Assembly: GCA_016871675.1 (NCBI GenBank)
Contig: VHCN01000004.1
Coordinates: 1 to 64,000, forward strand
Direction: 5' to 3'
From: Verrucomicrobiota bacterium
Lineage (GTDB): Bacteria > Verrucomicrobiota > Verrucomicrobiia > Limisphaerales > VHCN01
Length of the DNA: 64,000 nt
Shown: piece by piece, positions 1,630-6,409 of the stretch
Layout: each line of letters opens with the position of its first letter
Position numbering within the stretch: position 1 is the stretch's first letter
Made by a program: the position numbers and the translations under genes
The notes under the pieces: model-generated
What the model was told of the DNA's origin: nothing
Databases searched by the model: none
Seen by the model: the letters and a program-made list of their open reading frames with translations, nothing else

Positions 1630-2787
1630 CTAGTCCAAGGTCTTCTTTGGCGGTGCAATGTTAATCTGTCCCGGCTTGGCCGGTTGCGGCGGTGGAGGCG
1701 GGGGCGGCTTGGCGCCGGGCGGGGGCGGCGGCGGGGGCGGGGGCGGTTCCTTGAGCCGGTTCACGACGAATTGCGGCAAGTTCTCCTGATACAACGCCGC
1801 GCCGTAAAACTCCCAGCCGGCGGGGATGCCGTAGCGGCTGCATTGCTCGCGCGCGGCGTGATACGCGGCGACGCCCGTCGGGTGCACCCAGAACCAGCAC
1901 ATCGCCTTCGGCCGCGACCGCAGCCGCACGAGTGTCTTCCGGAACTCCGAGTCCGCGTCGTCCACCTGCTCCGGGGTGTCGCCTCCGTCGGCGCGCGGCA
2001 CCAGTTGCATCAACACGCGATCGCTCATGCTGTTCGTGTTGAGCGGGAATCGCACTTCGAGAAACTCGTCCGACAGCTTCTTCTCCGTGAGGAACGTGAC
2101 CGTCTTGATGTGGTCGAAGACGGGTGTCATGCCCTTCTTGTCGGCGGTGGGAACGTTCGTGAGGATGAGGTCATACTTCGCCTTGTCCACCTCGGACCAC
2201 GCGCGGGTGCGCCAGCCGAAGTCATTGATCCAATACACCTTGTTGCTCATGCACAGCACGCGGAACGTCTCCGCGCCCGCGGGTATGGGCTTGGCGACGG
2301 GCACGCGCACGTCCACGGGCGGCGGGCGGTTGGGCTGCGGGGTCTTGTCGAGCACGGCCTTGAGGTTGTCGCGCTCGGCGAAGAGCGTGTTGATCCTGGC
2401 CCGCTCCTCCTGCTCAGCCTTGCGCTGGTTGGTGAAGTCGTCCCGCAGCGTGTCGAGGTCACGGAGCTTGACGCCCTTTTGCTCAAGGGTGGTCTCGAAC
2501 GCGCGCAGGTCATCGAGCTTGGACTTGGCCTCCTGGCGCAACTGCTCCTCGTTCGCGCCGGACTTTTGCGCGATGAGCTTGGTGGCTTCGAGTTGCTGCT
2601 TGGCCTGCTGAATCTGCTGCGGCGTGACCTTGGCGAGGCTTTCCTCGATCTGGCCGGCCTTCTCGTTGACCTGAAGCTGCACGATGATCAACACGAGCAG
2701 CAACGTGCCCACCACGTTGGTCATGTTATCCATCATGGAGTCCATGTTGACTCCCTCGTCCAGATTCTGTTGTTGCCGTTTGGCCAT
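1630..2787 (-). CDS. ExbD/MotB-like stator protein with membrane Asp and proline-rich tail
   Basis: A 385-residue protein. One N-terminal membrane helix is preceded by MDSMMDNMTNVVGTLLLVLI (residues 15-34); the Asp at about residue 20 sits just where the proton-carrying Asp of ExbD, TolR and MotB is found. Residues 40-150 are a charged coiled coil. A globular domain (residues 170-340) contains CWFWVHPTGVAAYHAA and YGIPAGWEFYG, the pattern of ExbD-type periplasmic domains in PVC bacteria. The end is a run of ten prolines, then seven, expected to span peptidoglycan or need EF-P. It is the third gene of a cassette after the MotA/ExbB-like channel (3797-6409) and an ExbD-like paralogue (2893-3678), 105 bp away. 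Inferred role: peptidoglycan- or partner-facing part of a proton-driven motor. Confidence 0.75.
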   Translation of the reverse strand: MAKRQQQNLDEGVNMDSMMDNMTNVVGTLLLVLIIVQLQVNEKAGQIEESLAKVTPQQIQQAKQQLEATKLIAQKSGANEEQLRQEAKSKLDDLRAFETTLEQKGVKLRDLDTLRDDFTNQRKAEQEERARINTLFAERDNLKAVLDKTPQPNRPPPVDVRVPVAKPIPAGAETFRVLCMSNKVYWINDFGWRTRAWSEVDKAKYDLILTNVPTADKKGMTPVFDHIKTVTFLTEKKLSDEFLEVRFPLNTNSMSDRVLMQLVPRADGGDTPEQVDDADSEFRKTLVRLRSRPKAMCWFWVHPTGVAAYHAAREQCSRYGIPAGWEFYGAALYQENLPQFVVNRLKEPPPPPPPPPPGAKPPPPPPPQPAKPGQINIAPPKKTLD

Positions 2788-2892
2788 CGTCTTATCCCAA
2801 GTCCGTCGTCCACGGGTCTGGGGTCACACTTCTCCCAGCCACCCGCACCCTCACGGTCCCGATTACGCCCCACGCCGGACGCATTCGCAACC

Positions 2893-3678
2893 TCACTTCA
2901 TGAACTTCTCGAACTCGCTCAAGTCCACCTTCCCCTGCCCGGGGATGGGCATCTTGCTGGTCGCCAGCTTGTATTGCTGCTCAGCCCAGCCCGCGCCGCG
3001 ATTGTAGCTGTTCATCCCGTCCGTGCGGACCAGAAAGAGCACGAGATGAGTCTTCACGGCGGCGACCTCGGCGAGGAAGTCGTTGTAATCCTTGTCTGCG
3101 CCGATGGCCCCGGTGGCGATCCGAAACCGGTCATCCTTGCTGCGATGGATCACGATCGAGTCATTGTTGGCCTCGACCACGAACAGCCGCCGCCCCACCG
3201 CGAACCCGCTGCCGCCGCCCTGCACGCGCAGCGCGGGCCGGATATCCTCCGGCTTCATCTTCCGCTCCACGAGGTCTTCCTTCAGCCTCGCGATTTCCTT
3301 TTGCACCCTTGGCTGGTCGTCCTTCAGGTTCGCGATCACGATCCGCAGGTTTTCGATTTCCTTCTGCAGCCGCGTCCGCACGGCGTCCGTGGTTTCCGCG
3401 CCCTGCGCGACTTCCCGCAAGGCGAGCAGTCGTTTCTCAAGCTCCTCCACGCTCGAAAGCTGGTCCGTGATGCTGCGGAACTCCGCGAGTTGCGCCTGCA
3501 CCTTCATCATCTCCTCGGCGAGCGGGTTTTTCTTGGCCGCTTTTGTCCCGGACGACGTCGCCTGAATGATCGTCAGGATGCAAATCATCACCACGAGCGC
3601 GCCGGACAGGCACGCGAGGATGCTCATGAACGGAAAGAGCGACATCGCGGGCGCTGAACTGGCTTTGATGCGGGCCAT
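2893..3678 (-). CDS. ExbD-like stator protein lacking the membrane Asp
   Basis: A 261-residue protein with the same plan as its downstream neighbour: one N-terminal helix (LFPFMSILACLSGALVVMI, residues 14-32), a coiled coil (residues 45-150) and an ExbD-like globular domain (THLVLFLVRTDGMNSYNRGA near residue 215). Where the partner protein has Asp before the helix, this one has Phe-Pro-Phe and no acidic residue anywhere in the helix. It also lacks the polyproline tail. It follows the MotA/ExbB-like gene by 118 bp. ExbB/MotA pores hold two ExbD/MotB helices, so a natural reading is that the two paralogues form a heterodimer with a single proton carrier. That assembly is inference; the family relationship is judged from layout and motifs. 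Confidence 0.7.
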   Translation of the reverse strand: MARIKASSAPAMSLFPFMSILACLSGALVVMICILTIIQATSSGTKAAKKNPLAEEMMKVQAQLAEFRSITDQLSSVEELEKRLLALREVAQGAETTDAVRTRLQKEIENLRIVIANLKDDQPRVQKEIARLKEDLVERKMKPEDIRPALRVQGGGSGFAVGRRLFVVEANNDSIVIHRSKDDRFRIATGAIGADKDYNDFLAEVAAVKTHLVLFLVRTDGMNSYNRGAGWAEQQYKLATSKMPIPGQGKVDLSEFEKFMK

Positions 3679-3796
3679 GGGGCGGCGGTGGGGCGTGGGC
3701 GAATGCGTCCGGATGGCGGCTCGCTACAGCCCTCGAACGATCATTGGGTCATTGGTTGTTCGGTGACTCAACTTTGAACCGTGAACGGCTGCCGCG

Positions 3797-6409
3797 CTAG
3801 CCCTTCCCCATCATGCGGCCGAAAAGACCGGCCTTGGGTTGCTGCTGCACGATGACTTGCTTGCCGTGCAGTTCGGCCAGCGTCTGGTTGAGCGCGGCGA
3901 TGCCCTGCTGCAGGGACGCGAGGTGGCCGGCCACCGTCTTCATCGTGTCGTCCACGGCGCGCGTGGCGTCGCTGTGCAGCCGGTTCACGCCGGCCTCCAT
4001 CGTGCGGGCGACGGAGGTCTGGTGTTCCTGCGCGTGCCGGTCGAGCGCGGCGACTTTGTCCGACGCGGCGCGCGCGGCCTCGCTGAGCGCGGAGAGTTGC
4101 GCGGCGGCGGGCTTCATCAACTCCTCGAGGGAGCGCGCGGTGTCGCGGCTGAGCTGGGTGACGGCCTCGTTCAACGCGCGCTGCGCGGCGGCCTGCTGCT
4201 CGCGTCCGGCGCGGTCCATGTTCTGAAGTTGCGTGATGGATTCCCGGACGGCCTCGGCGAGCGCGGCGACTTGCTGCGTCGCGGGCCGCGAGGTTTCCTC
4301 GACGGCGCGGGCGTTGTCGCGGCCAAGTTGCGTCACGGCTTCCTGCAGCAAGCGCTGCGCGTTCGCCTGCTGCTCGCGCGCCGCCTGATCGAGCGACTTG
4401 AGCTGGGCAAGCGAGTCCTTGACCGCATCGGCGAGCGCGCTGATCTGCTGCGTCGCGGGGCGGATGGTCTCCTCGAGCGAGCGGCTTGTGGCGCGCTGGA
4501 GCTGCTCCAACGAGGTGGTGAGGCTCTGCTGCGCCGCGCCCTGCTGGTCGCGCATCTGCCGCTGGAGGTCGGGCAGTTGCGCGGTCGCGGCCTTGAGGCT
4601 TTCGCCGAGCGAACCGACCTGCTGCGCAACGGGCCGGATGGCCTCCTCGACGGACTTGGCGAGGTCGCGCTGGAGCTTCGCCGTGGCATCGAGGAACGCC
4701 TGCTGCGCCGCGCTGTGCTGCTCGCGGGACTGGCGCTGAAGGTTGGTGGATTCGTGGACGGCGTTCTTCGCGGCCTCGCCGATGCCGGAGAGCTGGCTCA
4801 CGGCGGGCTTCATCAGTTCCTCCATCGCCTTGGCGGAATGTTCGGCGGTGACCTTGATGGAATCGCCGAGCATCTTCGAGGCGTCCTGCTGGACGCGGGT
4901 GATGGATTCCTGCATGGCCTTGAGCACGCTGGCCTGATGCTCGCTGGACTGTTTTTCGAGCGCGGCGACGTGCACGGTCGCGGCCTTGACGGCGTCGCTG
5001 AGCGTGCTGACCTGCTGGACGGCCGGCTTGATGGTGCCCTCGATGGACTTGGCGGTCTCGGTGACGGCGACCTTGACGGCCTCGCCGACGACCTTGCTGG
5101 AGTCCTCGTGCAACTTGGCCAGGGATTGCTTCACGCTCGCGTCGATCTGCGCCTGCTGCGTCGCGGCGGCCTTCTCGAGCGAGGCGACCTGGTCGGCGGC
5201 CTTCTTGAGCACGTCGTGGAGCGAGTTCAAACTCTTGCCCGCGGACTGGCCGAGTTCGTCGAGCGTCTTGCTCGCGCTGTCGTTGAAGGCCTTGATCGAC
5301 TTGTGGAACGTCTCCTGCACGGCCTTGGTGTTCTCCTCCGCGCGTTTCTCCAGCCCCTGCGATTGCTCGCGGATCAACTTCGACGCGCCGTCCAGGCCGG
5401 TGAGGAATTGCGTGTGCGCGCGCGTGAGCGAGGCCGTGAGCGTGTCCGCCAGCGCGCCCATGTCGCCGCCGGATGCGTTCGAGCCGTCGTTGAGCCGCGG
5501 CAGCAGGATTTCGTTACAGTAGGCGTCAATGTGGTTGAGGTTGTCCTCCTCCTGCTTCTGCATGGAGGACATCGGCAGGCTCAGAAACATCGCGTAAATC
5601 AGCGCGAGCAGCGTGGTGTCAAACGCCGTCGCCAGGCCGCTCGTCACGCCGCCCATGCTCGCCATCATGGCCTCGACGTCCTTGGCGCCGGACATGACGC
5701 CCTTGAAGTAGCCGATCGCCTGCGAGAGGCCGATGACCGTGCCGATGAAGCCGAGGATCGGGATCGCCCAGACGAAGACCTTGACCAGCGTGTAGCTGCC
5801 GCCGATGCGCGCGCCGTCGATGTTCGACTGGTTGCTCATCATCGTGGCGACCTCGGCGTTCACCGTGCGCACCTCGAACAGTTCGAGCGCCTTGCGGATG
5901 CGGTTCACCATCATGCTGTCCCGGAGCTTGAGGGGCAGTGAATACACGTGCGAGATGAACACGTGCAGGTTGGACTTGTTGATGTCCCGGCCCAGGTCCA
6001 TCGGCAGCACGTCCAGCGTGAGCGCGCGCTGCTGGTGACGGAACTTGACGAACTTCAGAATCAGGAACGCCACGCCCCAGCCGAAGAGGAACGTCTCGGC
6101 AAAGTTCACCCAGCCGCGTTTCGCGAGGATCGCGTAGAAGAACGAATTCTGAAACGGCAGCGCGAGCAGGTAGAAGAACAAGAAAATCCCCGCGCCGATC
6201 CCGAGCGCGATCCACACGTTGGGGTTTGTCGGGTCGGTTTCCTTCCACGCCTCGCGTTGATTCGGCGAGCCCGCGGCGTCCGTGCCGCCCTCCGGCGCGG
6301 CGGGCACGGACAGGCTGGTGCCGCAACCGGGACAGCTCACGTTCGTGCCGGCAAATTCCGGCTCGACCATCAGCTTCATCGCGCACTTGGAACAATGGAA
6401 TCGAATCAT
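3797..6409 (-). CDS. MotA/TolQ/ExbB-type proton channel with zinc ribbon and long repeat tail
   Basis: I start at ATG 6409 because the protein then opens with a zinc ribbon (CSKCAMKL, later CPGCGTSL); an upstream in-frame ATG at 6529 adds only non-domain sequence. The protein is 870 residues. Membrane helices are near residues 55-78, 98-118, 205-237 and 255-280; the last two (LVKVFVWAIPILGFIGTVIG and ATAFDTTLLALIYAMFLSLP) carry the conserved small residues and Thr positions of the MotA/ExbB pore. After the last helix about 585 residues form a cytoplasmic coiled coil made of about eight repeats beginning EETIRPATQQ or a variant, with 58-residue period (two early units are 73). The plan (pore helices plus long tail, with separate ExbD-like partners) resembles ZorA of Zorya, but no zorC, zorD or zorE is adjacent. 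Role inferred: proton-powered rotor whose tail works in the cytoplasm. Confidence 0.8.
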   Translation of the reverse strand: MIRFHCSKCAMKLMVEPEFAGTNVSCPGCGTSLSVPAAPEGGTDAAGSPNQREAWKETDPTNPNVWIALGIGAGIFLFFYLLALPFQNSFFYAILAKRGWVNFAETFLFGWGVAFLILKFVKFRHQQRALTLDVLPMDLGRDINKSNLHVFISHVYSLPLKLRDSMMVNRIRKALELFEVRTVNAEVATMMSNQSNIDGARIGGSYTLVKVFVWAIPILGFIGTVIGLSQAIGYFKGVMSGAKDVEAMMASMGGVTSGLATAFDTTLLALIYAMFLSLPMSSMQKQEEDNLNHIDAYCNEILLPRLNDGSNASGGDMGALADTLTASLTRAHTQFLTGLDGASKLIREQSQGLEKRAEENTKAVQETFHKSIKAFNDSASKTLDELGQSAGKSLNSLHDVLKKAADQVASLEKAAATQQAQIDASVKQSLAKLHEDSSKVVGEAVKVAVTETAKSIEGTIKPAVQQVSTLSDAVKAATVHVAALEKQSSEHQASVLKAMQESITRVQQDASKMLGDSIKVTAEHSAKAMEELMKPAVSQLSGIGEAAKNAVHESTNLQRQSREQHSAAQQAFLDATAKLQRDLAKSVEEAIRPVAQQVGSLGESLKAATAQLPDLQRQMRDQQGAAQQSLTTSLEQLQRATSRSLEETIRPATQQISALADAVKDSLAQLKSLDQAAREQQANAQRLLQEAVTQLGRDNARAVEETSRPATQQVAALAEAVRESITQLQNMDRAGREQQAAAQRALNEAVTQLSRDTARSLEELMKPAAAQLSALSEAARAASDKVAALDRHAQEHQTSVARTMEAGVNRLHSDATRAVDDTMKTVAGHLASLQQGIAALNQTLAELHGKQVIVQQQPKAGLFGRMMGKG

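Follow-up and report, generated by a model that had tools for sequence, protein, structure and literature searches.

A zinc-ribbon MotA/ExbB cassette of Verrucomicrobiota with a candidate two-protein axle

One channel gene and two paralogous partner genes

We examined a window of 64,000 nucleotides from a Verrucomicrobiota bacterium (GenBank assembly GCA_016871675.1, contig VHCN01000004.1, positions 1 to 64,000), in which three genes, here called A, B, and C, form a single unit on the minus strand. An initial annotation had described this unit as a channel with two ExbD-like partners, and its coordinates, strand, and grouping of the three genes are correct. The intergenic gaps measure 118 bp (A-B) and 105 bp (B-C), and all features located below lie on the minus strand. 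Gene A (3797..6409, 870 amino acids, ATG at 6409) encodes a zinc-ribbon channel subunit of the MotA/TolQ/ExbB family. Its Pfam MotA_ExbB match spans residues 170-287 with an E-value of 1.2e-7 and scores above the cut-off; with this domain and its four hydrophobic transmembrane (TM) helices, A has the makeup of a channel subunit of the MotA/TolQ/ExbB 5:2 superfamily. The zinc ribbon (6296..6409) has the form CxxC...CxxC, with cysteines at positions 6, 9, 26, and 29, of which Cys9, Cys26, and Cys29 are invariant and Cys6 nearly so (alignment A4). The cytoplasmic coiled-coil tail (3800..5476) has a period of 58 residues and is very variable in length among homologs, in which the whole A protein ranges from 419 to 1183 amino acids. 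These features bear out the first description of A as a zinc-ribbon MotA/ExbB channel with a long tail.

Genes B (2893..3678, 261 amino acids) and C (1630..2787, 385 amino acids) are full-length paralogs: hhalign aligns their profiles with a probability of 99.7% (E-value 6.6e-27) over 267 columns, and the profile of C also retrieves B genes. Each protein has one N-terminal hydrophobic helix, as had been noted before, followed in the AlphaFold2 models by a helical stalk and a beta/alpha head. The stalks are nearly equal in length, at about 161 residues in B and 152 in C. Overall predicted local distance difference test (pLDDT) scores are 78 for B and 73 for C, with the heads mostly at 83-96. 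In B, the transmembrane helix (FPFMSILACLSGALVVMICILTII) lies at 3565..3636, and the head, which has an ExbD/TolR-like topology, lies at 2896..3243 (pLDDT 83-96 over most of its length). In C, the helix lies at 2662..2745 and the head at 1783..2295 (pLDDT about 90 over most of it), and the last part of this head aligns with that of B when profiles are compared. Some C proteins of about 515 amino acids (e.g., L016, L022) carry a large insertion in the head, found with both pore types described below; the window's C has no such insertion. Downstream of its head, C has a proline-rich tail (1633..1758) ending in Leu-Asp, a dipeptide that is C-terminal in 79 of 99 homologs. This conserved end suggests that C has a periplasmic docking partner.

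The outer domains had been called ExbD-like, a description that held in part. Foldseek matches the head of B to TolR (5by4) with a probability of 0.97 and a root-mean-square deviation of 3.2, but with an E-value of 0.089; for the head of C, TolR appears at rank 39 (E-value 0.4), and there is no clear fold match. Helical coiled coils dominated the matches in a further structural search with B. Neither B nor C matched the Pfam ExbD/TolR family (PF02472) up to an E-value of 1, scans of both against Pfam and NCBIfam gave chance coiled-coil matches and no family, and a sequence search of solved structures with both returned coiled-coil matches only. The B and C families are common in two phyla, yet unnamed in Pfam.

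To place the residue that carries protons in ExbD, we aligned hhalign profiles, built for B from 116 sequences, with ExbDs from the same order. The B segment LFPFMSILACL falls on ITPLLDLAFVL of ExbD, which puts Ser19 of B (codon 3622-3624) at the position of the carrier Asp. The C segment LDSLMD falls on TPLLD, which puts Asp20 of C (codon 2728-2730) at the same position. Asp20 is invariant in all 116 complete A-B-C triples, and C would accordingly resemble the one-helix, Asp-bearing axle subunit of the 5:2 superfamily. Ser19 is conserved in every one of the 58 triples that share the window's pore type (type I, below); the lack of Asp in B is therefore not decay. Both earlier assignments, an Asp at the carrier position in C and no acid there in B, are confirmed by these alignments. 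A second acid of C, Asp16 (codon 2740-2742), lies one turn from Asp20 on the same helix, towards the cytoplasm; its counterpart in the ExbD alignment is at the membrane interface. In the order's ordinary ExbB-ExbD-ExbD cassettes, both ExbDs have the Asp (three of three examined). Two further kinds of partner without the acid were observed. One is an otherwise ordinary ExbD (L253:2280-2687), clustered with two genes that resemble ExbB; its carrier position holds Asn instead of Asp (PLLNLAF). A planctomycete family of long B proteins of about 550-770 amino acids (L150, L151, L166, L167, L173, L175, L179, and L180) has Ala or Thr at this position (FPFLAVLLC) and forms a second acid-less partner lineage.

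Two pore types and the mosaic history of the cassette

Most of the 116 complete triples fall into two types, 58 in type I and 41 in type II (56 and 40 when three loci that were counted twice are removed). Type I, to which the window belongs, has Ser19 in B, Asp16 and Asp20 in C, and Glu105 in A. Type II has Asp in B, Val16 and Asp20 in C, and Asn in A. Mismatched combinations are absent from the 96 loci of the two types. The columns that separate the types are 98-100, 105, 211, and 265 in A; 13, 15, and 19 in B; and 14, 16, 17, and 37 in C. Every one of them, in all three proteins, lies within or directly beside a membrane helix. In A, Glu105 (codon 6095-6097) belongs to the TM2 region (6056..6136), and the type-specific Val211 to TM3 (WAIPILGFIGTVIGLS, 5732..5788). 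Thr265 (codon 5615-5617), which is Ala in type II, stands next to the invariant Thr266 (alignment A3) in TM4 (AFDTTLLAL, 5582..5638). By homology, TM3 and TM4 line the pore. Such coupling of pore residues across three proteins is a strong source of information when proton paths are modelled.

Outside the two types, other combinations occur. Planctomycete zinc-ribbon loci retain Ser in B with Asp16 in C, and their A proteins vary. Loci linked to GAP1 genes and similar loci, together with L058 and L210, have Asp in B with Glu or Asp at position 16 of C, and L220 has Ala in B with Asp16 in C. We considered whether Glu105 of A is required when B has Ser, and rejected this because A of Planctomycetota varies at that position; to judge from the alignments, Glu105 is a marker of verrucomicrobial type I and no strict requirement. 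Many orthologs have Asp in B and no second acid in C; the acid therefore seems to have moved from B to C and not simply to have been lost. An Asp aligning in the second partner, which the initial annotation had named as a sign against its own reading, is thus absent from the window's B and present in B of many type II orthologs.

We compared the histories of the pore and the heads using quick tree searches, counting type changes on supported branches. The tree of A shows a single split between the types (support 94), in which type II is a clade (96), and the membrane pieces likewise show a single split (100). When the non-pore parts are placed in one tree, no fewer than five type changes are needed on supported branches; taken separately, the heads of B need at least five and those of C at least seven. 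An approximately unbiased test rejected a single type II clade for the heads of both B (p = 0.0005) and C (p = 6e-42).

The exchange can be followed at the DNA level at one locus, ribBA-ribH-nusB-ftsY, where two close relatives, L043 (type I) and L085 (type II), have flanking proteins that are 95-96% identical. Their DNA is 81-93% identical over most of the upstream flank and 94% identical at the start of the zinc ribbon. Identity falls to 47-60% over codons 31-160 of A, and is 67% at the start of B and 57-65% at the start of C. Some portions of B and C outside the helices reach 94%. From these tree switches and this pattern of identity, we read A, together with the helices of B and C, as a travelling pore module that recombination has several times parted from the heads. 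Throughout these exchanges, A has always kept matching helices in B and C. The absence of mismatches is supportive, not conclusive, because exchange of heads alone would not create mismatched helices.

A candidate motor with a B-C axle

A-B-C encodes a relative, so far unclassified, of the ion-driven motors behind flagella and nutrient uptake, and its axle appears to consist of two proteins, only one of which keeps the canonical acid. Based on the observations above, we propose that the three genes probably specify a single ion-driven motor in the inner membrane, of the MotA/ExbB 5:2 kind, whose axle is a B-C heterodimer. A shared A pore for both helices, with a stoichiometry of A5:B1:C1, is most likely, given the paralogy of B and C, their strict pairing, their matched stalk lengths, and the covariation of their helices with A. 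It is also favored because a pure B axle in type I would be without a canonical acid. The ring of A, with five copies by homology, would enclose a single helix each of B and C, and the canonical carrier would be on C only (Asp20), with B offering Ser19 at that position. Protons would move from the periplasm through the TM3/TM4 pore of A to Asp20 of C and on to the cytoplasm, while A turns relative to the B-C axle. The matched stalks would raise both heads into the periplasm, where the proline-rich tail of C could reach a partner, and the tail and zinc ribbon of A may use or report the motion in the cytoplasm.

Current rotary models assume that 5:2 motors have two equivalent axle acids, used alternately, with 36-degree steps, one per ion (PMC9389320). 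A motor with a single canonical carrier would be expected to take unequal steps or steps of 72 degrees instead of uniform steps of 36 degrees. An asymmetric B-C axle would be a natural test of how ion-driven motors step: a one-acid motor with two-acid close relatives at the same locus would make the 36-degree model directly testable, and step size, ions per turn, and torque would differ predictably between the one-acid and two-acid motors. An asymmetric heterodimer with a single carrier had been suggested for the window at the outset. Its hetero-dimeric axle agrees with the mosaic history and with the way the pore helices of all three proteins covary; the acid-less B proved to be one of two pore types, and Asp16 of C had been missed. 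In its widest form, our proposal is that an obligate hetero-dimeric axle with one canonical carrier per motor is widespread in Verrucomicrobiota and Planctomycetota, and that one-carrier and two-carrier versions of its pore module have repeatedly replaced each other in situ while the periplasmic heads stayed conserved. We hold this wider statement tentatively, with slightly less than even confidence.

Several points weigh against a hetero-dimeric, single-carrier axle. The AlphaFold2 models of B and C are of monomers only, and homology to ExbD is weak by sequence, with pairwise hhalign E-values of 0.0013 for C and 0.42 for B. The co-substitution occurred once on the A tree; it is the exchange, and not the origin, that is repeated. 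In genome G269, the sole clear exception to linkage, a type II A-B pair lies on one contig (L018/L041) and C on another (L200), near a contig end. This last case would fit an A shared by two motors, with A5C2 doing the work and A5B2 regulatory or inactive. If A formed complexes with B2 and with C2 separately, both helices would covary with A as well, and the 5:2 motors that have been tested have homodimeric axles (PMC9389320). However, the type I A5B2 axle would have no canonical acid at all, yet Ser19 of B is strictly conserved; B and C are 1:1 neighbors in every sister subfamily with complete triples; and the absence of the acid from B goes together with the presence of one in C. We regard two separate motors as unlikely. 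It is less likely still that the axle is a C homodimer and that B is a peripheral third component outside the ring, like TonB or TolA. A third one-helix protein does accompany the 5:2 core in Ton and Tol motors, and the window's B lacks the acid, but B is a full-length paralog of C, and type II B has an ExbD-like PFLD motif in the same place, as an axle helix would.

A different objection concerns the number of carriers. Asp16 of C may be a second carrier, in which case the term "single carrier" would be wrong for type I. Such a motor, with protons carried by both Asp16 and Asp20 after the acid moved from B to C, is compatible with a B-C axle and amounts to a variant of our proposal. It would account for the sum of two axle acids in both types (Asp16 and Asp20 of C in type I; Asp19 of B and Asp20 of C in type II). 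Against it, position 16 of C aligns with ExbD residues at the membrane interface, where an acid may be merely an exit residue, and other subfamilies hold three acids (Asp in B, Glu or Asp16 in C, and Asp20 in C). We consider this variant somewhat unlikely. Far more improbable is a degenerate Zorya-type defense unit composed of ZorA and two ZorB-like proteins. PADLOC ZorA models match A at 7.4e-10 and weaker, and A has a long cytoplasmic tail, but several of these hits fall on the coiled-coil tail, and neither B nor C was matched by a ZorB model at E-values up to 1. Moreover, the neighbors in relatives are unrelated housekeeping genes, and searches of plasmids and viral contigs with our queries turned up no relative of B. 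A B-C axle within one ring of A remains the reading we favor.

Relation to known systems and distribution

As far as sequence comparison can tell, the cassette is neither Zorya nor Ton/Tol, and the closest layout is that of AglRQS, the gliding motor of Myxococcus xanthus, which likewise has one MotA/TolQ-like protein and two ExbD/TolR-like paralogs in one operon. This one-plus-two layout has been described, with AglQ and AglS recognized by Pfam ExbD (PMC3169522), a family that B and C of the cassette do not match. Because AglR has 245 amino acids, it lacks the long tail of A. Glt machinery was not seen beside the cassette, though no search for Glt/Nfs was made. The D28N substitution in AglQ abolishes proton conductance (PMC3858216), and heterodimer formation by AglQ and AglS is still an open question (PMC9389320), on which a B-C axle would bear.

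The cassette shares with ExbB-ExbD and TolQ-TolR the MotA_ExbB fold, a single-helix partner whose Asp stands close to the beginning of that helix, and, in the head of B, a TolR-like topology. It differs in having two partners, one without the Asp, a coiled stalk of about 110 residues, and heads outside Pfam. Because the partners fall outside the ExbD/TolR family, membership in Ton/Tol fails; the initial annotation had named homologs among known Tol/Ton components as a sign against its own reading. No family of TonB/TolA, TolB, Pal, or TonB-dependent receptors recurs as a neighbor in the relatives, whose neighbors were not scanned individually for these. Like ZorAB of Zorya, the cassette has a MotA-like subunit whose cytoplasmic tail is long and coiled; this tail is the main basis of the likeness to Zorya that had been pointed out initially. 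The cassette differs in its two partners and its zinc ribbon. For ZorA, NCBIfam scores of A are far below the cut-offs, in contrast to the PADLOC match. Membership in Zorya fails for want of a ZorB match. No neighboring gene, and so no zorC, zorD, or zorE, was seen to recur beside the cassette in relatives, though neighbors were not scanned with ZorC/D/E models and the window's contig ends 1.6 kb past C.

Related A-B-C triples without the zinc ribbon occur in other classes of the phylum (L027, L028, L029). In two of these loci, L028 and L029, the triple stands in an operon with GAP1-like genes, a link to the GAP1-N2 GTPase systems of Kaur et al. 2020 (PMC7159879), and GAP1-N2 (7e-21) and GAP1-M domains were confirmed in L028. 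The window's cassette, in contrast, stands alone. A GAP1 link for it was considered and dropped, since the window's genome has no match to GAP1-N2 (PF20013). The terms MotA, ExbD, and proton channel gave no hits in a term search of Kaur et al., and the passages found in a 2025 mBio survey of MotAB relatives (PMC12505986) describe no such B-C pair. The initial view of the cassette as an undescribed system agrees with our finding no described family for it in the open literature, nor for B and C in Pfam or NCBIfam.

B is present in 15 of 289 genomes of the phylum and C in 51 of 384 genomes of the class, and B-like proteins are present in 31 of 294 planctomycete-side genomes. Many of these are fragmentary metagenome-assembled genomes, and some locus origins carry doubtful labels. 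Nearly all loci in Verrucomicrobiota and Planctomycetota keep the A-B-C order, with A first, as a stand-alone operon. No neighbor family recurs across the examined relatives, except for lineage-specific housekeeping genes such as ribBA-ribH-nusB-ftsY. Elsewhere in the window's genome there are three ExbB-ExbD pairs of the ordinary kind. One locus (L031, contig CALQJI020000007.1), whose A is 76% identical to that of the window, is titled Klebsiella pneumoniae, probably a mislabelling, and the labels of several metagenome-assembled genomes titled Akkermansia muciniphila are similarly doubtful. Just downstream of C, at 943-1344 on the minus strand, a gene without a Pfam or NCBIfam match encodes a small, exported-looking, cytochrome c-like protein with a single CxxCH motif (CKACH).

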